Source: a virus
Strand: one strand, 5' to 3'
DNA: 27,670 nucleotides
IMG/VR virus record: IMGVR_UViG_3300037248_000299
Location: 1-27,670 of that record
A model generated the notes under the pieces. That model was given only the letters and a program-made list of their open reading frames with translations, did not search any database and was not told the DNA's origin. Positions 16,563 to 27,670 of the stretch are shown piece after piece (within the stretch, counting starts at the first letter, position 1; each line of letters starts with the position of its first letter). Both the position numbers and the translations under genes were made by a program.

Positions 16563-17195
16563 ATGCCCTACGGCCGCTCAAAGGGCCTAAACTCGCCGCC
16601 GGCCCATCTTCTACCCCCTGGCGTCGAGGCCGGCGCGGTTCGGCCTCTGTTCATCGAAGCCGGGCGCGAGTTAACAGACGAAGACCTAGTAGCTCTCTCT
16701 ATCGCTCCAACACGCGCGATCTTCCCGACGAAGCACGTTCGGGCGATACATCATCGCCAAGCCCAGCTGGTCGCCCTCGGCCGGCCCGATAACGAAGTAG
16801 CAGCAATCTGTGGCACGAGCTCGGCGCGAGTGCGAGACTTAAGGACGAATCCGGCTTTTGCTGATCTGGTCTCCTACTATCAAGAACAGAGAATCGAGCT
16901 CGATTACGAGACGCACTTACGTATTCAAGGCAAGCTCGTAGACATACTTGAGCTAACCACGAACGAGATTCAAGAGCGCCTCGACGACGACGCTAAGCGA
17001 GCGGCGATCTCTCTCAGTGAGCTACGTAAGACGGCCGAATTCGCAGCAGATAGAACTATCGCGCCGCCGCGGGCGACGCAGCAAGGCAACGTCACGCCGC
17101 CGACTAAGATAAGCTTGAACTTCGGTTGGGCGCCGAAAAAGGACCAGCAAGCCGAAGCTCAGACCATCGACGTAACACCGGAGACAAGCTCATGA
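16563..17195 (+). CDS. terS: Terminase small subunit
   Basis: 210 residues from ATG at 16563, after AAGGACGCCACGCC. TerS recognises the packaging site and loads the large subunit. Residues 64-100 (HRQAQLVALGRPDNEVAAICGTSSARVRDLRTNPAFADLV) have the helix-turn-helix plus L..dP.F pattern of small terminases. A long helical stretch (about 105-150) could form the oligomer core, and the Pro/Gln/Lys-rich end (170-205) could touch TerL or portal. The first 50 residues are a non-conserved extension. The stop overlaps the next start as ATGA. TerL is 4.4 kb downstream, an unusually long distance. Identification is by pattern. Confidence 0.7.
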   Translation: MPYGRSKGLNSPPAHLLPPGVEAGAVRPLFIEAGRELTDEDLVALSIAPTRAIFPTKHVRAIHHRQAQLVALGRPDNEVAAICGTSSARVRDLRTNPAFADLVSYYQEQRIELDYETHLRIQGKLVDILELTTNEIQERLDDDAKRAAISLSELRKTAEFAADRTIAPPRATQQGNVTPPTKISLNFGWAPKKDQQAEAQTIDVTPETSS

Positions 17196-17420: not shown

Positions 17421-17834
17421 ATGCCAGACGACACTGACGTTGATCCCGAAATACAGAAGCTGAAAGACAATTACGCCCGTAATCGAGCATGGTCCACGCG
17501 AGGGAGGTATCAGACTAAACTGTCTCCAAAACAAGAGCAGGAGTTTCAAGGTTGGGTGTGGAAAAACAAGATTCCATACTATCTGCACTTTCCGCCCGAT
17601 CAGTCTATGCAAGATTACGACATGCGCGGCTATTGGAAAGCAATGCAATCGGGCGATCCTTTAGCAGTACGAGATCAAGAAACTATGCACTTTCCTGATA
17701 AATACAAGACGCCCTATCACGAGAGCTTTAGCAACCAGAGTATGTACGCGACTAAAGACGCGCCGACTTGGACGGGCGATTACCTCTTCGACAAAGATAA
17801 CAATCTTGTCTACCCTCAAGATCCCGGCATGTAA
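17421..17834 (+). CDS. Conserved phage protein (YDMRGYWKA...HFPDKYKTPYH type)
   Basis: 137 residues from ATG at 17421, after AGAGGATCAGTTCT. The centre and end (QDYDMRGYWKAMQSGDP, residues 64-80; HFPDKYKTPYHESFSNQSMYA, 90-110; APTWTGDYLFDKDNNLVYPQ) match a recurrent phage family I know from packaging and tail neighbourhoods, known only as hypothetical. It is rich in Tyr, Trp, Pro and His, with few predicted helices after residue 60. A virion-linked role is likely from the company it keeps. No catalytic motif is visible. Confidence 0.8.
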   Translation: MPDDTDVDPEIQKLKDNYARNRAWSTRGRYQTKLSPKQEQEFQGWVWKNKIPYYLHFPPDQSMQDYDMRGYWKAMQSGDPLAVRDQETMHFPDKYKTPYHESFSNQSMYATKDAPTWTGDYLFDKDNNLVYPQDPGM

Positions 17835-17840
17835 GCTGCT

Positions 17841-18359
17841 ATGGCCGCTCTTCCAGATACCTTCAAGCCAGCCCGGAACCTTCGCTGGTCTCGTCACGTC
17901 TCGACAAGGCCGATTCCTAAACCTAGCTCTACCTGGAGCAAAGTCGGCCTGGCTTACGAGCGGCGCGTTGTTAGCAGCTTGGCTGAAGCAGGTATCCGGC
18001 TCCTGCATAACCCCGGCTTCGAGTTCGAGGACGACAGCGGCTCTAGCTATTGCGTTCCGGATATAATCTTACCTAACTACGACAACAAGCTAATTATCAT
18101 CGAAGTTAAGCTAACATATAAGGTCGAAGCTATCTTGAAGCTAAGGAATCTTTACGCGCCGGTCGTCAGCCTGGCTCTATCGCGCCCCGTTGTCTGTCTC
18201 GTGATAGCTAAGAACGTTACGCCGAACTCGCCTGAACCAGAGCTAACCTTGGAGTCAGCGATATGCCAGAGCGCGCGGAGCGAAATAGCAGCGGCGGGCC
18301 GGCCGGGCGTGGGCTTTCTAGTTCAGTGGCTCGGTCGCGGGATGTTCCCGATCAGATAG
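17841..18359 (+). CDS. PD-(D/E)XK nuclease-like protein
   Basis: 172 residues from ATG at 17841; the ribosome-binding site is weak, and it begins six bases after the previous stop. Residues 36-50 (GLAYERRVVSSLAEA) carry a Glu at 40. CVPDIIL (71-77) provides the Asp at 74. LIIIEVKLTY (84-93) provides E88 and K90, completing E...PD...ExK. ILKLRNLYAPVV (98-109) fits the helix that follows. Together these are a full active-site set for a restriction-endonuclease-fold nuclease. In phages such enzymes act as resolvases, exonucleases or packaging helpers. The position near TerS suggests DNA processing before or during packaging; this is inference. Confidence 0.75.
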   Translation: MAALPDTFKPARNLRWSRHVSTRPIPKPSSTWSKVGLAYERRVVSSLAEAGIRLLHNPGFEFEDDSGSSYCVPDIILPNYDNKLIIIEVKLTYKVEAILKLRNLYAPVVSLALSRPVVCLVIAKNVTPNSPEPELTLESAICQSARSEIAAAGRPGVGFLVQWLGRGMFPIR

Positions 18360-18817
18360 CCTCCAGTCACGTTCTCGTCCGGGCTAATCCGGAGATGATC
18401 GTCGCTTGTCTGGAGTGGGCCGGATCGGTTTTGCTCAGCATGAATATACGCTCACCAAAGCCAGCTGACTATAGAGTCTTCTGGCCCGAGTTTCCCAGCG
18501 ATCCTAACGAGGCTTACGGCTATACGAACGAGCGGTTACGTATAGCAACGCCAAGAGCGACTGATATTGAGCTCATGGAAAACATCTTCACATGGCTAAG
18601 TTTAATAGATAACGTAGTCGCTCGGCGTATCGTGTGTATTAGAAGCCTAGTTACGCCCGTAAGCGAGCGCTATGTATATCATTGGTCTAAGATAGCTATC
18701 TTGCTGCACATGGATCGGCGCGGCGTAAAAAGGCTTCATAACTTAGGTATTCAAGACTTATCTAATAAGCTAACACTCTTCAGTGTTCAACAGATTGTTT
18801 CGGAGATAACTAGCTAG
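18263..18817 (+). CDS. DUF6362-like protein, possible HTH
   Basis: 184 residues from ATG at 18263, after GGAGTCAGCGAT. The first 32 residues are translated from bases that also encode the end of the nuclease (97-base overlap) and have low complexity (Ser/Gly/Arg/Pro). A later start at 18395 has no ribosome-binding site. From residue 45 the pattern WPEFP...Y.....RIATPRATDIELMENIFTWLSLI...ARRIVCIRSLV...W.KIAILLHMDRRGVKRLHNLG resembles DUF6362, a phage family that ends in a helix-turn-helix (AILLHMDRRGVKRL). DNA binding, perhaps in packaging or late regulation, is inference. The transcription unit ends after this gene. Confidence 0.6.
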   Translation: MPERAERNSSGGPAGRGLSSSVARSRDVPDQIASSHVLVRANPEMIVACLEWAGSVLLSMNIRSPKPADYRVFWPEFPSDPNEAYGYTNERLRIATPRATDIELMENIFTWLSLIDNVVARRIVCIRSLVTPVSERYVYHWSKIAILLHMDRRGVKRLHNLGIQDLSNKLTLFSVQQIVSEITS

Positions 18818-19125: not shown

Positions 19126-19470
19126 ATGAACAGCGCGCAAACAACCAGCAACCAAGGATTTCACAACATGGCCGAGCAAGGACTTAGCTATACTCCTAAT
19201 AGCGCGCCAAGTCAGACGCGCTTGCTAGCGAGTATTGTAAATCAAATTCAGCAACACACCGGGCACGTTCGAGAACTAACTAATCGCGTTCGAATGTTTG
19301 CTGACGAACTATTTGGCGCGCCGCCGAGTTCCGGCTCGACAGTACTAGCGCCTAATTCCGGCCCGAAGCAAGTATATCCCATTATCGATCAGCTACAAGA
19401 ATCTCTGAACGAGCACACTTCAGCCCTGTCGGAACTAGAATCGCAGCTCACAAGGATGAGCAATCTCTAG
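19126..19470 (+). CDS. Hypothetical protein with two helical segments
   Basis: 114 residues from ATG at 19126, after TTGGAGGCTTAAATT, a very good ribosome-binding site. The first 30 residues are Ser/Asn/Gln-rich and probably disordered. Residues 32-63 form a helix (LLASIVNQIQQHTGHVRELTNRVRMFADELFG), residues 65-82 a Pro/Ser/Gly linker, and 85-112 a second helix (IIDQLQESLNEHTSALSELESQL). Its two-helix layout would suit a coiled-coil assembly factor. I recognise the VRM.ADELFG phrase only from hypothetical phage proteins. It opens the structural cluster, just after the terminator. Confidence 0.7.
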   Translation: MNSAQTTSNQGFHNMAEQGLSYTPNSAPSQTRLLASIVNQIQQHTGHVRELTNRVRMFADELFGAPPSSGSTVLAPNSGPKQVYPIIDQLQESLNEHTSALSELESQLTRMSNL

Positions 19471-19485: not shown

Positions 19486-20292
19486 TTGATAGAGTTCTCC
19501 CAGCCTAATCTGCCGGACAAGATAGCCCAAAGCGTCTTCAACGACGCGAGTATAAGCGCGGCTGAGTGGTGCTCGCCACGTAGCTTCAGACTCGAAGCCG
19601 GCTTGGCTTGGCTAGCGAGCCGAGCTTTTGTTGGCGAAAAAGATCAGCAATTCTGGTTTATCGGCCCCGATTTCGGCGCCTGCGTAAGCGCGATGAACAC
19701 CCTCAAGGGCGCGCTAACACCAGGTAGCTTTACTCCAGCCCAACGCGCGCCGGCGTTCAACTTGATTAACGGTTCTAGTCTCTTCTTTAAGAGCGCCGAA
19801 AACATAAACGCCCTCTTTGCTGACGCGGTTTTCGCCGCCGTGATCGACCAGGCTATTCACGTACCGGAGAAAGCCTGGAGTGCACTGCAGAGAACTTTCG
19901 CCAACACACATACGCCGCTTCGCATTTTGTCGACCGTGGCTGGTAGAGCGAACTGGTTCTACGATTTCGCGCGCCAGGTCGAGCGCGACAATACTAGCGA
20001 GCCCGAGCGCTACTTCTTTTCGCGCTTCTCGTGCTATGACGCACTTGAAGCCGAGCTGATCGAGCAAGAAGACATCGACTATGCCCGGGCGACTTTGCCA
20101 GATCACGTGTTTAGAGCGCTTTACCTAGCAGAAGCCTATGACGACAGAATCGAAGCCGCGCATAAAGCCGCTGACGCGAGGCTTATGACCGACACTGAGC
20201 TCGCGATCATAGCTAATATCGATCCTAACGAACTCGACGCGATCAGTGACGAAGAGCTAGCTAGTTTAGCTCAGGAAAGATCCTTTTCTTAA
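19486..20292 (+). CDS. Terminase-like protein with degenerate ATPase motifs
   Basis: 268 residues from TTG at 19486; no ATG exists before residue 70 and no strong ribosome-binding site is visible. The order of segments follows the ATPase half of large terminases: LAWLASRAF (40-48), QFWFIGPDFGACVSAMNTLKGAL (55-77), INGSSLFFKSAENINALFADAVFAAVIDQA (94-123), TPLRILSTVAGRANWFYDF (143-161), FRALYLAEAYDD (near 208-219). Catalytic residues are lost: the P-loop place reads SPRSFRL (30-36) instead of G-x-x-x-GK-[ST], and Walker B reads VIDQA (119-123) instead of DEA. No nuclease domain follows. The frame is intact, so the protein is kept. It could be a structural partner of packaging or an inhibitor; function unknown. 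Confidence 0.7.
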   Translation: MIEFSQPNLPDKIAQSVFNDASISAAEWCSPRSFRLEAGLAWLASRAFVGEKDQQFWFIGPDFGACVSAMNTLKGALTPGSFTPAQRAPAFNLINGSSLFFKSAENINALFADAVFAAVIDQAIHVPEKAWSALQRTFANTHTPLRILSTVAGRANWFYDFARQVERDNTSEPERYFFSRFSCYDALEAELIEQEDIDYARATLPDHVFRALYLAEAYDDRIEAAHKAADARLMTDTELAIIANIDPNELDAISDEELASLAQERSFS

Positions 20293-20309: not shown

Positions 20310-20534
20310 ATGGACGACAAAGGTATTACTAACTCGAATATGCGCGGCAAGATGAAGGGCGGCTCGATCTTCTCCGACGCGCCGAGTATGCCCCAGGAAC
20401 ACGGCGACAGCGCTATGCAAAACACGGCCGTCGGCAGCGGATCGAGGCCGACTAAATCTAAGTTCATGATCGACACTACGGCGCCGGAAGACCCGCATAC
20501 GCAAGGGCGCGACGTACCAGGTAGCTTGAAGTAA
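20310..20534 (+). CDS. Small Ser/Gly/Pro-rich hypothetical protein
   Basis: 74 residues from ATG at 20310, with AAGGAGTCTAGACT in front. It is low in hydrophobic residues and rich in Gly, Ser, Met and Pro (NMRGKMKGGSIFSDAPSMPQEHG; TTAPEDPHTQGRDVPG), so it is probably disordered. Its composition, with the PSMPQ and TAP phrases, is close to the next gene product (PTMPQDNSLPMS), and both may be small flexible particle proteins. No family recognised. Confidence 0.6.
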   Translation: MDDKGITNSNMRGKMKGGSIFSDAPSMPQEHGDSAMQNTAVGSGSRPTKSKFMIDTTAPEDPHTQGRDVPGSLK

Positions 20535-20731: not shown

Positions 20732-21016
20732 ATGAGCGAAAAGTTCCATCAGGTCACGCCGCTTTTCTGGTACATAAACGCCGATCTTAACGGCACCGTG
20801 GCGTTACCGAATCCAGCTGCTAGCGGCGGCCCCGTAGCGCCGATCGGCCTCCAGGTAGCCGTGCTCGATAACATGGGCGTAGCGGCGACGACGAACATTA
20901 CTATTACGGGGCCGATCAATGGCGGCTCTAGCGGAACCAGCTTGACGACTAATTACGCCTGGGCGCTCTTTATCTGGCAGGGCGCGACCTGGATGCAACT
21001 CGGCCCGGCGGTCTAA
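20732..21016 (+). CDS. Beta-sandwich-like structural protein
   Basis: 94 residues from ATG at 20732, after AAGGTAATTATC. It is beta-rich: QVAVLDNMGVAATTNITITGP, then GG-rich turn, then TSLTTNYAWALFIWQGATWMQLG. This pattern (strand-rich, ending LiW.G..W..l) is common in short decorating or fibre-base proteins of tailed phages. There is no signal peptide. A virion role is inferred from composition and neighbours, not from a known family. Confidence 0.65.
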   Translation: MSEKFHQVTPLFWYINADLNGTVALPNPAASGGPVAPIGLQVAVLDNMGVAATTNITITGPINGGSSGTSLTTNYAWALFIWQGATWMQLGPAV

Positions 21017-21270: not shown

Positions 21271-21570
21271 GTGGGGTATTCCAGAGCTTGTCAAGATATA
21301 CGTGAGGAACTGATGGCGGTTCAGACTGTTGATATACTTGGAGAGCTCATCGAGACTGGGATTCATTTCTATGTATTTCGGCCCGATGTTGATCTCAAGG
21401 ATCGATGGATTCCGAAGCGTTATACTGAATATAACTATGCTTCGCGAACTCTTAACATGCCGGTTTTTGTAGCCAGTAAGTATGGTCTAGCTGGTCAAGC
21501 CACGTATAGAGTATGTTCTTCAGGTGGTATAGAATGGATACCGCCAGATAGTTATGTTGTAAAGCAGTGA
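21271..21570 (+). CDS. Small hypothetical protein upstream of TerL
   Basis: 99 residues from GTG at 21271, directly after TTAAGGAGTTCAA. A second start, ATG at 21313 with GAGGAACTG in front, would remove 14 residues. The centre is beta-rich with many aromatic residues (IHFYVFRPDVDLKDRWIPKRYTEYNYASR), and it ends GGIEWIPPDSYVVKQ. No family recognised. The stop overlaps the TerL start as GTGA, so TerL translation is coupled to this gene. Confidence 0.65.
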   Translation: MGYSRACQDIREELMAVQTVDILGELIETGIHFYVFRPDVDLKDRWIPKRYTEYNYASRTLNMPVFVASKYGLAGQATYRVCSSGGIEWIPPDSYVVKQ

Positions 21571-23006
21571 ATCTGATTACGCCTTCGGCCGCGGCTGAGC
21601 TTCTCTTAACTCGGCGCTTAGCTAAGCGAAATATGGTCGATTACGTTGAGTATCTTGACCTGGGTTTCGTTCCGGCTCGTCATCATAAGTTCATGTGTGA
21701 CAAGCTCGACGCCGTTGAACGTGGCGAGATAGATAAGCTTATGTTATTCTTGCCGCCAGGATCAGCAAAGAGTAAGTACTCGTCAGAGCTGTTCCCGGCT
21801 CGCTATCTAGGACTTAATCCGACTAAAGCTATTTTGGCTTGCTCGCATACTCAGCCACTCGCAGAGCGTTTCGGCCGCCGAGTTAGGAATCTTTTTTCGC
21901 AACCAGAACACGCCGCGCTCTTTTCTGTCAGCATAGCCAAGGATGAAAAAGCCGCGTCGCACTGGTCAACCGAGCAGGAGGGCGAGTATCTCGCAGCTGG
22001 CGTCGGTGTTGCTATTTCAGGTCGAAGAGCTGATCTAGGCTTGATTGACGACCCGGTTAAGAATCGCGAAGACGCCGATAGCTTGAGATCGCAAGAAGCG
22101 ACTTGGGACTGGTATGTAAATGACTTCTTGCCGCGCTTGAAGCCTCACGCCGCGCAGATTCTTATCCAGACTCGCTGGAGTGAAGGTGATTTAGCGGGCC
22201 GAATTCTTGATCGCGAGGCATCAGAGTGGACCGTTGTTGAGCTCCCGATGGAAGCTCGCGAGGATGATCCGCTAGGGCGCGAGCTTGGCGAGCGCTTGTG
22301 GCCGGAATGGTTCACGGAGAAGCAGGTCGAGACAGCTAAGTTAGACGCCCGTTCCTGGTCAGCTCTTTATCAACAGAGACCCGTCTCGGAAGAAGGCGAG
22401 TACTTTAAGCTAGCCTGGTTCGGGACCGAATACGACGCGATTCCAGATAACGCTCACTTCTATGGCGCGAGCGATTACGCAGTTACGGAAGGCCACGGCG
22501 ACTTTACGGAACACGGCGTATTCGCGTTAGATGCTTTCGGTAATCTTTACGTCGTTGATTGGTGGCGTGGGCAAACTACCTCTGACGTTTGGATCGAGCA
22601 TCAGTGTGATTTGATTCATCAGTACGAGCCGCTAAGGTGGTTTGGAGAATCTGGGCCGATTCGGCGCTCGATTGAGCCGTATTTGACTAATAGAATGACG
22701 CAACGCAATGCGAACGTCTGGATCGAGTGGTTAGCTAGCGTTAATGATAAAGCTACGCGCTTAAGATCGTTTCAAGCCCTAGCCTCTCGCGGTAAAGTTT
22801 TTTTGCCACGATACGCCTCTTGGAAAGCCGAGCTTCTTACGCAGCTTACACACTTCCCAGCTGGCAAGCACGACGACGGCGTTGATGTGTGCTCACTAAT
22901 AGGTCGCGGCCTTGATCTTGTTCAGGCGCCGAAAATGAAGCGCTGGACGACGAATAGTAATCTAAATACTTCCGAGTCGAATGAACTAGGTTGGCTAGCA
23001 AGCTAA
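21567..23006 (+). CDS. terL: Terminase large subunit
   Basis: 479 residues from GTG at 21567, coupled to the upstream gene by GTGA. This is the DNA-packaging motor and the head-filling or site-cutting nuclease. Motifs: PPGSAKS (63-69, Walker A), LGLIDDP (157-163, Walker B with catalytic acid), QTRW (201-204, coupling motif), then the RNase H-like nuclease with D303 in GASDYAV, D331 in VVDWWRG and D436/D437/D440 in KHDDGVDV. All key acids are present, so it should be active. Length is normal for the family. It works with TerS (16563) and the portal (25826). The stop shares one base with the tailspike ATG (TAATG). Confidence 0.95.
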   Translation: MNLITPSAAAELLLTRRLAKRNMVDYVEYLDLGFVPARHHKFMCDKLDAVERGEIDKLMLFLPPGSAKSKYSSELFPARYLGLNPTKAILACSHTQPLAERFGRRVRNLFSQPEHAALFSVSIAKDEKAASHWSTEQEGEYLAAGVGVAISGRRADLGLIDDPVKNREDADSLRSQEATWDWYVNDFLPRLKPHAAQILIQTRWSEGDLAGRILDREASEWTVVELPMEAREDDPLGRELGERLWPEWFTEKQVETAKLDARSWSALYQQRPVSEEGEYFKLAWFGTEYDAIPDNAHFYGASDYAVTEGHGDFTEHGVFALDAFGNLYVVDWWRGQTTSDVWIEHQCDLIHQYEPLRWFGESGPIRRSIEPYLTNRMTQRNANVWIEWLASVNDKATRLRSFQALASRGKVFLPRYASWKAELLTQLTHFPAGKHDDGVDVCSLIGRGLDLVQAPKMKRWTTNSNLNTSESNELGWLAS

Positions 23007-25177
23007 TGAAAGTTCTTTTTGTCTTAACTCTTTTAGCCGCACTTATTTTTTTGGTTCCTGAAAGCCAAGCTCAAGGTGTTATTCAGCAGTATGGCTCGTT
23101 ATTCGCCGGCGATAGTATTATGTCGCAAGGTAATAACCGGGCTGTTGACGCAGGCAATAGCTCTGTCCCGACGCTTCCAGGAACGCGCCCGGTCGGTTTC
23201 GGCGTAGTCAACTCTGGCCTTGGTTTCTGCCAGTGGAGCCCTGATCCAGGAGCCAATACAGCCTGGAACCAGTTATGTTGGGGCTTTAATAGTTCTGGAG
23301 CAGGGGTTATTAATTATAGTAATATCAATACTGCTACTAATAGTCTTCTTCTTCAGGTCAATGGTAATACTGATTTGACACTTAGTAATATTGGCGTTAC
23401 TGGAACTACTCAGCCTTGTTCGGACAATAGTGCTCTATTAGCTACTGATGCTTACACACATAATTGCGTTTCTATTACTGGCGGTATTACAGCGGCTAGT
23501 AATTCTGTTTTAGAAACTATTCCATCGACAGCCACAACTTCTGTAGTACGGCTCGGCTTTACTACTGCTGGGGACGCACCGCCACTTCAGTTTATATCTA
23601 GTAATTCAGCATGCTCGCTGAACTCCGGTGCTGGTGATGGCGGCTCACAAGTCCCATCAGCTGACGGCAAATGTTGGCTCGCGCAGTTTTCCGCAACAGG
23701 AGCAGATTGGCGCGAGTGGGGAGTCAAGTTTGATAACTCGACTAACAATTCCGCCGCGCTTCAGGCAGCAGACACTTGGGCACCAGCCAATGCAGGCACA
23801 CTAGTGGGGCCGGCAGGTATTGCGCGGTTCAGCACGCCATTGGTGGTTGATGCCGCAGGCAATGGTAACTGGTCATGGCGTGGGTCGCAAAAATCAACGA
23901 CAGAGTTCCTCTATACCGGCGGTTCTTCTGACATCATCACCGCCGGAAATAGCGGTGGCACATTTATGAATTATGTGAATATTTCTGATATCTACGTCGA
24001 TAGCATCAATCAGCTTTCTTCCGGGTATGCGCTGCACTTAAATTACACGAACTTTTCGACGCTGCATAACATCAGGATTGGAGGCCAACAAGGAAATGGC
24101 AATCTGTGGAATTCCATTTATTTCGATGGTTACTATAACGACACCATTTCCGGCAACTCGGATATCAGCGGACAGAATGTCGGGATCAGTGTCGCCGGCC
24201 TCGGCTCCGAGGGAGCGAATCTGCTGATCGAAGACAACACCAATATCGTCCCGCCGGTCAGCAAAAACGGCTGCATTAACAACGCAGCGGTCTGTGAGAA
24301 GATCGGCCTGTTGATGGGCGGCGGCGCGGGCGGGGTCGTGTGCTCTGGAGCCAACTTCGAGGCAAACGGAGTCAACTGGCAGGTTGACGAAAGCTTGACC
24401 GGAACCGCTAACCGGGAATTTTCCCTAGTCGGCGGCTGTATCATCGACAGCACCCGCGGCGGCGATGATGTCTTGCTGAATGACGCCAATGCCGGCGATG
24501 CCGCGCAGGCGATCTTTGCGAACTGGTGGATCGCCTCAGCATGTTCTAGCTCGGCCACGATCACTCCGGCTTGCTCGGGCTCAGGCGTCCACGTCGAAAA
24601 TTACCTAAATGGCAATGTCGCCATCAAAACAGGCGTCATTTGGAATATCGCGAATGGTGACGCGATCCGAATTGACGATGCTACGACCAAGGTCAAAATT
24701 GATCCCGGAACATTGCTGCACGATTTTACTGGGTACGGCATTAACTGCACAGTCTCAACGACCAATGTTTATCCGGGCTCGTTCCCGCATGATGACGGCC
24801 GATCTTGGACTGGCATGTATGCGCCAGACTGCAATCTCGCGAGCGGTCTCGGTACTAACAACGGCTATTTACGAAACCCAGACGGCACGTATCGAGAGTG
24901 GCAGCAAGTCACCTTTGCCTCGGGACAATTGGCCAATACCCAGTTGCTGCCGACCGGAGGCACAGGTTCGCCACCCGTGATGGTCGCGTTGCCGCTACCA
25001 TTCCCGAATGGGTGGAACGGGCAACCCGTATGCACCGTGTCATCGGCGACCAGCAGCACTGGGCTCGCTGCTTTGTATGCTTCGTCTAGCGGGTCGTCAG
25101 CTTTCAATCTGTATGGGGTTTCTAATGTGAATCTGACGAACCCAATGACCGCAAGTTGCGATTCGTTTGGGTATTGA
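23006..25177 (+). CDS. Beta-helix tailspike with N-terminal signal peptide
   Basis: 723 residues from ATG at 23006 (TAATG with the TerL stop; an upstream TTG at 22991 is in frame but adds only five residues). Residues 1-22 are a Sec signal: MK, a hydrophobic core (VLFVLTLLAALIFLV), PESQA. Residues 23-170 are Asn/Ser/Thr-rich and beta-like. Near 245, NNSAALQAADTWAPANAGTLVGPAG starts a pectate-lyase-like right-handed beta helix (to about 560). From about 620, NPDGTYREWQQVTF and VALPLPFPNGWN...SFGY resemble a gp53-like trimer tip. Such spikes bind or cut host polysaccharide; no catalytic set is identified. Base composition changes near 23560, suggesting a transferred distal part. A signal peptide on a virion spike, and its place between TerL and portal, are odd. 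Confidence 0.85.
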   Translation: MKVLFVLTLLAALIFLVPESQAQGVIQQYGSLFAGDSIMSQGNNRAVDAGNSSVPTLPGTRPVGFGVVNSGLGFCQWSPDPGANTAWNQLCWGFNSSGAGVINYSNINTATNSLLLQVNGNTDLTLSNIGVTGTTQPCSDNSALLATDAYTHNCVSITGGITAASNSVLETIPSTATTSVVRLGFTTAGDAPPLQFISSNSACSLNSGAGDGGSQVPSADGKCWLAQFSATGADWREWGVKFDNSTNNSAALQAADTWAPANAGTLVGPAGIARFSTPLVVDAAGNGNWSWRGSQKSTTEFLYTGGSSDIITAGNSGGTFMNYVNISDIYVDSINQLSSGYALHLNYTNFSTLHNIRIGGQQGNGNLWNSIYFDGYYNDTISGNSDISGQNVGISVAGLGSEGANLLIEDNTNIVPPVSKNGCINNAAVCEKIGLLMGGGAGGVVCSGANFEANGVNWQVDESLTGTANREFSLVGGCIIDSTRGGDDVLLNDANAGDAAQAIFANWWIASACSSSATITPACSGSGVHVENYLNGNVAIKTGVIWNIANGDAIRIDDATTKVKIDPGTLLHDFTGYGINCTVSTTNVYPGSFPHDDGRSWTGMYAPDCNLASGLGTNNGYLRNPDGTYREWQQVTFASGQLANTQLLPTGGTGSPPVMVALPLPFPNGWNGQPVCTVSSATSSTGLAALYASSSGSSAFNLYGVSNVNLTNPMTASCDSFGY

Positions 25178-25825: not shown

Positions 25826-27670
25826 GTGCAAGATCCTGAAAAGCCCTTGAACGACGGCGCGATAAGGTTGCCGACAGTCACGCCAGGTATGAATCGTATT
25901 GCCCCAACTTCGCTTAATGATAGTCAAGACGGTAAAGTCAGATTTCTTAGAGCCGAGACTAAAGATCAAGTCGAAGAAGATAACGAAATCTTGGGGCGCG
26001 GGCGAAAACGTCTTGAGCGCTGTATCTCGGCAGAAGCCGATAATCGCCGCGACGGTCTTGATGATGACAAGTTCTATTCTGGCGATCAATGGCCCGCTGA
26101 CGTTCGCGCGAGACGTAATTCCGAGAAGCGCCCGTGCTTGACTATGAACAAGCTTCCGGTGCTTGTCAAACAAGTTACTAATGATCAGCGACAGAATCGA
26201 CCGACTATAGATTATCATCCTATTGGCGATCGCGGCGACATTGATGTTGCCAGGATTTATCGCGGTCTTGTTCGTGATATAGAACGCCAGTCTAGAGCCG
26301 ATAGGGCTTATGATACTGGTTATGAGTCGGCCGCGCGAAAAGGCTGGGGTTATTGGCGGATCATAACCGAGTACGAGTCGCCCGATACTTTCGATCAGGT
26401 AATTCGCGTTAAGAGAATTCGCAATGCTTATTCGGTTTATCTCGACCCGGATAATACCGAGATCGACGGCTCTGATGCCAAGTTCGGCTTCATAACCGAA
26501 ATGATCGAGCGTGATGAGTTTAAGCTTAAGTGGCCGAAAGCTGATCCTATGCCCTGGGTTATGGGCGGTTTCGGCGATAGCTTAAAGAATTGGGTCGATC
26601 AATACGCGGTTAGGATAGCTGAGTATTATGAGATTATTCAAGAAGAGCGCGAGCTTGTTTTGCTTGAGAACGGCTTCGAAGGTTGGCGCGATGAACTTAA
26701 GAAAGAAGTCCTAGACAAGTTCTCGATAGTTAGCTCGCGCCGGTCGCTTGTTCCGAAGATTTGGTGGTATAAGATAACCGCTAAGGATATTTTAGAGCGA
26801 ACAGAGTGGCCCGGTAGGTGGATTCCGATCGTCAAATGTATTGGAGATGAGATTGATATTGAGGGCCGAGTTAAGCTCTGGGGTATTATACGTCAAGCCA
26901 AAGATGCGCAGCGTATGTATAACTATCATAGGACTTCAGAAACTGAACGTATTGCATTAGCTCCGAAAGCGCCATTTATTATAGCAGAGGGTCAGCTGGA
27001 AGGTTACGAGGGCTCTTGGAAGGAAGCCAATAATAAGAGCTTTGCTTTCTTACCTTATAAGGCTACCGAGATACACGGCCATATGGTTCCGCCGCCGCAG
27101 CGTCAGCCGCCTGTTGAGATTCCAGCAGGCATAGTAAACGCTGCTCAAGGTGCCGCACAAGATATGCTCACGACGACTGGGGTTAGATTTGACGCGACTC
27201 TTAACGAGCGCACTTACGATGAGTCGGGTCGTGCCCTTAGAGAGCTTAGGCGCTCTGGCGATATAGGTAGCTTTAACTTAATTGATAATCTTATGCACAG
27301 TCTTCGTCATACGGGCGAGATTTTTGCTGATCTAATTCCTAAGATTTATAATCGCCCCAATCGTGTCCTTACGATCTTGCGCGATGACGATACTGATGAG
27401 CAAGTTAGAGTCGATCCGTTTGGCTCTAAGCCCGTTCATGAGGATCAGAATCCTGAGACGCAGCGCGTTATGCGCGCGTTCGACCCGACTTATGGTAAGT
27501 ACGCCGTCGCGGTTACGATTGGCCCGAGTTATGCGACAAGGCGTATCGAGACAGCCGAAAGTATGATGGATTTCTTGAGAGCTATTCCGACTAGCGCGCC
27601 GCTTATAGCTGATCTCGTCGCCAAGAATCAAGATTGGGAAGGCTCAGAAGAAATCGCTACTCGTCTCGCT
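25826..27670 (+). CDS. P22-type portal protein, C-terminus cut by window edge
   Basis: GTG at 25826, 615 codons to the edge with no stop. The portal forms the ring at the special vertex through which TerL pumps DNA. Hallmarks of the P22-like portal family appear early: FYSGDQWPADVRARRNSEKRPCLTMNKLPVLVKQVTNDQRQNRP (around 80-125), followed by wing and stem domains: YDTGYESAARKGWGYWRI, VYLDPDNTEIDGSDA, KIWWYKIT, PFIIAEGQLEGY, SFAFLPY and GIVNAAQGAAQDML. The GTG has AAAGG about ten bases upstream; a later ATG (residue 22) is possible. Length already fits that family (P22 portal is about 725). No frame break is seen. The upstream gene is two bases away. Confidence 0.95.
   Translation, partial: MQDPEKPLNDGAIRLPTVTPGMNRIAPTSLNDSQDGKVRFLRAETKDQVEEDNEILGRGRKRLERCISAEADNRRDGLDDDKFYSGDQWPADVRARRNSEKRPCLTMNKLPVLVKQVTNDQRQNRPTIDYHPIGDRGDIDVARIYRGLVRDIERQSRADRAYDTGYESAARKGWGYWRIITEYESPDTFDQVIRVKRIRNAYSVYLDPDNTEIDGSDAKFGFITEMIERDEFKLKWPKADPMPWVMGGFGDSLKNWVDQYAVRIAEYYEIIQEERELVLLENGFEGWRDELKKEVLDKFSIVSSRRSLVPKIWWYKITAKDILERTEWPGRWIPIVKCIGDEIDIEGRVKLWGIIRQAKDAQRMYNYHRTSETERIALAPKAPFIIAEGQLEGYEGSWKEANNKSFAFLPYKATEIHGHMVPPPQRQPPVEIPAGIVNAAQGAAQDMLTTTGVRFDATLNERTYDESGRALRELRRSGDIGSFNLIDNLMHSLRHTGEIFADLIPKIYNRPNRVLTILRDDDTDEQVRVDPFGSKPVHEDQNPETQRVMRAFDPTYGKYAVAVTIGPSYATRRIETAESMMDFLRAIPTSAPLIADLVAKNQDWEGSEEIATRLA

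Follow-up and report, generated by a model that had tools for sequence, protein, structure and literature searches.

In phages lambda and P22, the C-termini of the small terminase subunits (TerS) bind the large subunits (TerL) (review PMC9611059). The TerL ATPase domain of P74-26 is represented in the PDB, and the titles of two P74-26 TerL entries (4znl and 7ks4) name a bound nucleotide. The PICI protein Rpp, which is satellite-encoded and resembles TerS, binds TerS and alters the choice of DNA (PMC6739421). In the literature searched, no account was found of a selected, catalytically dead TerL lying beside a working TerL of another family. Here we describe an apparent case in a window of 27,670 nucleotides, which is the whole stretch of viral DNA analysed (IMG/VR record IMGVR_UViG_3300037248_000299).

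Results

The ORF at 19486..20292 (+ strand) has a TTG start and an open, intact frame of 268 amino acids, and is referred to below as pseudo-TerL-A or pseudo-TerL, a putatively dead TerL ATPase domain followed by a TerS-like tail. The same frame was intact in three other viral contigs (96-100% identity), with the same TerL downstream in each. A Pfam scan of the protein found nothing, and a weak match to SidE_mART (E 0.21) was dismissed as chance. Matches to the PHROG TerL families were weak and fell in the second half of the domain (phrog_7579, E 1.3e-5; phrog_2, E 1e-3). Searching viral contigs and bacterial genomes with profiles recovered a family, here called TerL-A, whose full-length terminases have a nuclease and the motifs EASTKxGKT and VIDEAS; a representative is of the phrog_2 type. 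Intact members of this family were 31-41% identical to pseudo-TerL over residues 1-220 (tblastn, E down to 2e-38), and the start of pseudo-TerL aligned with their N-termini. A profile combining pseudo-TerL with 14 TerL-A ATPase domains scored the former at 289 bits (E 1.5e-86); as this profile includes pseudo-TerL itself, the independent support for homology is given by the tblastn figures. The closest relatives of pseudo-TerL are TerL-A proteins that occupy this gene slot in other phages, and pseudo-TerL is a nuclease-less TerL ATPase domain of the TerL-A lineage (phrog_2 type).

The preliminary description of this DNA had reported an intact frame of 268 residues whose sequence tracks the ATPase half of a terminase, and this agrees with the open frame, the TerL-A homology and the predicted fold (see below). 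It had also called the protein a paralogue of the adjoining TerL. Pseudo-TerL is nearest to TerL-A (phrog_2), not to the resident TerL, which is of the phrog_38 type. The term is wrong if taken to mean a duplicate, and a recent duplication of the resident TerL was ruled out, because the two TerLs belong to different families.

The place of the lost Walker A motif (19570..19599, + strand; residues 29-38) reads CSPRSFRLEA, against ASTKxGKT in the family; CSPRSFRL, which corresponds to ASTKSGKT in relatives, retains none of the three residues of GKT. At Walker B (19840..19854, + strand; residues 119-123, VIDQA), the catalytic Glu is replaced by Gln, which is also present in a diverged homologue (L203). 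Changes also affect SLYGED, RSTLTAT and, close to the N-terminus, the YPKQ segment. When 120 TerL ATPase domains were aligned, Walker B was DE in all 116 non-pseudo rows and GK[TS] was present in 114 of the 116, the exceptions being one intein-interrupted row and one GKN. An intein-like sequence breaks the P-loop of one TerL-A frame (L256). BLASTP aligned GSTKSGKT of a 109-residue Bradyrhizobium TerL fragment with CSPRSFRL, and a misalignment of the motifs was ruled out by pairwise and multiple alignments. The readings SPRSFRL and VIDQA given earlier for these two places were thus confirmed. The absence of a nuclease domain, also noted earlier, was borne out, as pseudo-TerL departs from TerL-A at the linker AE-x-x-DD and has no RNase H-like nuclease domain. 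Judged by these motifs, pseudo-TerL presumably neither binds nor hydrolyses ATP.

An AlphaFold2 model of pseudo-TerL built from 22 sequences had a pLDDT of 86.5 (about 90 for residues 11-210 and about 55-75 for the tail), against 37.6 when the input was four near-identical sequences. The model has the ASCE/TerL ATPase fold, which was the outcome that the preliminary description had set as a check on its reading. The top Foldseek matches in the PDB were all TerL, in the order P74-26 TerL ATPase, Sf6, T4, D6E and HK97 TerL. The best structural match was the P74-26 ATPase domain (PDB 4znk, 4zni, 4znl; E 3.3e-12, TM about 0.6).

The dN/dS ratio, another check proposed earlier, was calculated by counting on local DNA alignments against two related contigs (L002 and L067). 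Values for pseudo-TerL were 0.01 and 0.04 respectively, similar to those for the resident TerL (TerL-B; 0.05 and 0.03). A full-length position-by-position count for pseudo-TerL gave more nonsynonymous differences without altering the conclusion (Fisher p 7.5e-12 and 4.9e-23). The low ratios indicate that pseudo-TerL is under strong purifying selection and is not decaying.

A pseudo-TerL of a second lineage (L203:7995-8816) was 60% identical to that of the window; its P-loop reads CSPKSARV, its Walker B VLDQA, and its tail is of the same kind. At this degree of divergence, the two lineages have the same D-Q change and the same loss of GKT. The 91-kb contig of this second hybrid (L203/L284) also carries a TerL-B, 77% identical to that of the window, and both phages have the order TerS-A, nuclease, pseudo-TerL, 74-aa gene, 94-aa gene, TerL-B and portal. 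A TerL-A-derived pseudo-TerL was found together with TerL-B in only these two phage lineages, and the last scan of viral contigs found no pseudo-TerL beyond them. The two pseudo-TerLs were 61% identical over residues 1-222. Their identity peaked, at 0.81, over residues 196-243, which cover the domain end and the first tail motif; the segments before these had 0.51-0.62. In a tree, the four pseudo-TerLs grouped together with support 1.0; the stem of their clade is long, and its tips lie at about twice the median depth. This topology fits fast change after a loss of function, with constraint setting in later.

The C-terminal tail of pseudo-TerL (20152..20289, + strand; residues 223-268) stands in the place of the nuclease and was absent from the preliminary description. 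It comprises about 46 residues, begins at the domain boundary and carries TDxEL motifs resembling those of TerS-B, the small subunits that precede TerL-B (DARLMTDTELAIIA and SDEELASLAQ). After the linker AExxDD, TerL-A continues into its nuclease, whereas pseudo-TerL continues as EAAHKAADARLMTDTELAIIAN...ISDEELASLAQERSFS. The ORF directly 5' of TerL-B usually ends in a TDxEL-type motif, for example RRDARELTDDELVSIAS in L011; the strict motif was found in this leading ORF at 29 of the 41 TerL-B loci that have one, versus 3 of 205 window frames. With a profile made from 31 TerS-B tails, pseudo-TerL left out, pseudo-TerL was the top match among 689 frames of the window and the G003 contig (E 4e-4), and none of 18,740 scored shuffles reached as high. 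The match is short, its two copies giving 15.3 bits. When 8,015 frames from the first loci were scored, pseudo-TerL was the best match outside the TerS slot, only just ahead of one unrelated frame at 14.9 bits, and none of 6,956 ORFs from TerL-A/phrog_2-type loci (L070-L193) scored as high as 10 bits. The tail of the L203 pseudo-TerL scored lower (8.9 bits), yet was the best frame of its stretch; it ends in LVH and many TerS-B proteins end in VH, a likeness that is only suggestive. These statistics are post hoc in one respect, because the motif was spotted by eye before the profile was built, and the similarity of the tail to TerS-B could have arisen by convergence. Searching the frames of the window, G003 and L284 with the tail profile, together with PHROG scans of selected ORFs, found no TerS-B in the hybrid phages, for which all records are fragments.

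The genes to the left of pseudo-TerL correspond to an A-type module. The ORF at 16563..17195 (+ strand) is a candidate small subunit (TerS-A) by weak homology and position; it is 28% identical (E 5e-6) to a protein of Caulobacter phage Kuura annotated as small terminase, and its counterparts head the TerL-A module in L196-L198. An initial idea that the window has no TerS was abandoned on account of this ORF. The TerS-A proteins (window 16563-17195 and L196-L199) have in common an N-terminal RELTxxDL motif resembling the C-terminal motif of TerS-B. A nuclease-like gene (17841..18359, + strand; weak Hjc match, E 0.024) and a DUF6362 gene (18263..18817, + strand) belong to the same module. The Kuura "putative small terminase" (L194:750-2045) is a TerS-A-like protein fused to the nuclease, and the two are separate genes in the window. 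Two genes adjoining the packaging block (window 17421-17834 and 19126-19470) had no match in L002 and L067, although these contigs are similar in other respects.

To the right lie a 74-aa gene of B-module type (20310..20534, + strand), with a 78% identical homologue in L284 and one that precedes TerS-B/TerL-B in L011, and a 94-aa gene (20732..21016, + strand) shared with the second hybrid, at 48% in L284. TerL-B, the working large terminase (21567..23006, + strand; phrog_38 type, E 1e-97), begins 1,275 bp 3' of pseudo-TerL, matching the true TerL that had been placed about 1.3 kb downstream. The portal gene (25826..27670, + strand) is cut by the window end and was assigned to phrog_156 via homology to L011 and L068. 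Between TerL-B and the portal lie genes for large proteins whose starts resemble signal peptides (window 22991-25177; L011:13165-17189); in L284, a stretch of such genes precedes TerL-B instead. The portal of the L003 contig (L068:2127-5354) has an intein-like insert (residues 369-710) that matches terminase families bearing such inserts, and the L284 portal is uninterrupted.

In L196, L197 and L198, TerS-A, nuclease and DUF6362 genes are followed by an intact TerL-A, the same order as in the window, and pseudo-TerL therefore occupies the TerL-A slot. TerL-B was not found in the L196-L198 contigs, nor TerL-A in seven B-type contigs, all of these being fragments. By its gene content, the phage family of the window is evidently a hybrid, with the A module on the left and the B module (74-aa gene, TerL-B and portal) on the right. 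TerL-B is, on the same comparison, apparently a second, foreign motor, with pseudo-TerL in the slot that intact TerL-A holds in A-type phages. In Kuura, L199 and L200, relatives of TerS-A lie beside other TerL types and no pseudo-TerL-A was detected there, so TerS-A may pair directly with foreign TerLs. In the last two (L199:11182-12734 and L200:4145-5697), TerL is split into abutting ATPase and nuclease ORFs, downstream of the TerS-A homologue.

Discussion

The union of a TerL-A body with a TerS-B-like tail, the presence of TerS-A alongside TerL-B and the failure to find TerS-B suggest an adaptor or substitute small subunit. The best explanation, to which we give an even chance, is that a dead motor domain now serves TerL-B as an adaptor or as a recruiter resembling a small subunit. 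The ancestral TerL-A of the A-type module would have lost its motor function as the phage acquired TerL-B, the portal and head genes. The ATPase fold would have been kept with changed active-site segments, unable to bind or hydrolyse ATP, and the nuclease would have been swapped at the domain boundary for a TerS-B-like tail. The TerL-A surface may still contact the TerS-A of the module, or pseudo-TerL may replace the small subunit, and the tail would engage TerL-B in the manner of a TerS-B tail. In this way, a motor from one lineage would be brought to DNA that the other lineage recognises. We infer both protein contacts, the order of the evolutionary events and the role in packaging. The main doubt about the adaptor arises because TerS-A relatives sit beside other TerL types without a pseudo-TerL-A. 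It is possible, though we hold this more tentatively, that the dead TerL-A motor with its TerS-B tail amounts to a third terminase subunit, through which a foreign motor runs with the old DNA-recognition module.

A related but rather improbable arrangement dispenses with contact to TerS-A, the protein replacing the small subunit and acting through its tail on TerL-B, whose ATPase or nuclease it would regulate. For other phages, TerS is described as modulating the activities of TerL (PMC9611059), and in these hybrids TerS-B was not found and the tail occurs only on pseudo-TerL; the TerL-A body is, however, itself conserved across the lineages over residues 1-222 (61%), which exceeds the needs of a mere tail carrier. 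The dead domain might instead take a place in the TerL-B ring, as a spacer or a subunit that does not fire, or cap that ring at the portal. Inactive subunits have been reported in T4 TerL pentamers (PMC9611059), the TerL ATPase fold is predicted to be retained and D-Q is kept in two lineages. We consider this unlikely, as a mixed ring of subunits as distant as phrog_2 and phrog_38 types is improbable, and it leaves the TerS-like tail unexplained. The preliminary description had proposed a pseudo-enzyme possibly repurposed in packaging or assembly, such as a motor spacer or a regulator. Its general idea is strengthened by the catalytic loss in two lineages, the low dN/dS and the conserved packaging block; the spacer is made less likely by the different families of the two TerLs, a regulator is compatible with the data, and the TerS-like tail suggests that the protein acts as an adaptor or small subunit, a role that had not been considered.

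A decoy against competitors or host defence, poisoning A-type terminases or occupying TerL sensors such as Avs3, is very unlikely. The structure of Avs3 with a phage terminase has been solved, and its terminase chain (8dgc_E) matches the pseudo-TerL model (E 5.7e-5). However, pseudo-TerL lies inside the packaging block and is selected like TerL-B, its identity to known A-type TerLs (about 33-40%) is too low for easy subunit poisoning, and the tail again goes unexplained. A functionless, decaying relic of the replaced terminase is scarcely credible: the protein is truncated, lacks its motifs and sits at the position of the gene that was replaced, but the dN/dS and Fisher values, and the retention of frame, tail and D-Q between lineages only 60% identical, rule out a pseudogene.

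The adaptor, if true, would show how phages can exchange packaging motors and yet keep DNA recognition. It makes testable which contacts pair small with large terminases; for TerLs of the phrog_38 type, the TDxEL tail offers a concrete candidate contact.

Compared with known systems, pseudo-TerL has in common with TerLs of the phrog_2 type (e.g. L196:2885-4387 and L150-L165) the N-terminus, ATPase fold and gene slot, but it lacks Walker A, the catalytic Glu and the nuclease domain, and has a new tail. The split TerLs of L199 and L200 likewise include an ATPase-half polypeptide, although theirs keeps GKT and has its nuclease partner directly 3'. Pseudo-TerL lacks the GKT and Glu of the nucleotide-bound P74-26 TerL. 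It resembles TerS (phrog_309 and others preceding TerL-B) in its C-terminal TDxEL-type tail and also has a place in the packaging block, but its body is a TerL ATPase fold without a helix-turn-helix DNA-binding domain. Rpp is not a dead TerL, but offers a conceptual precedent, as a terminase-derived protein that forms a heterocomplex redirecting the packaging machine.
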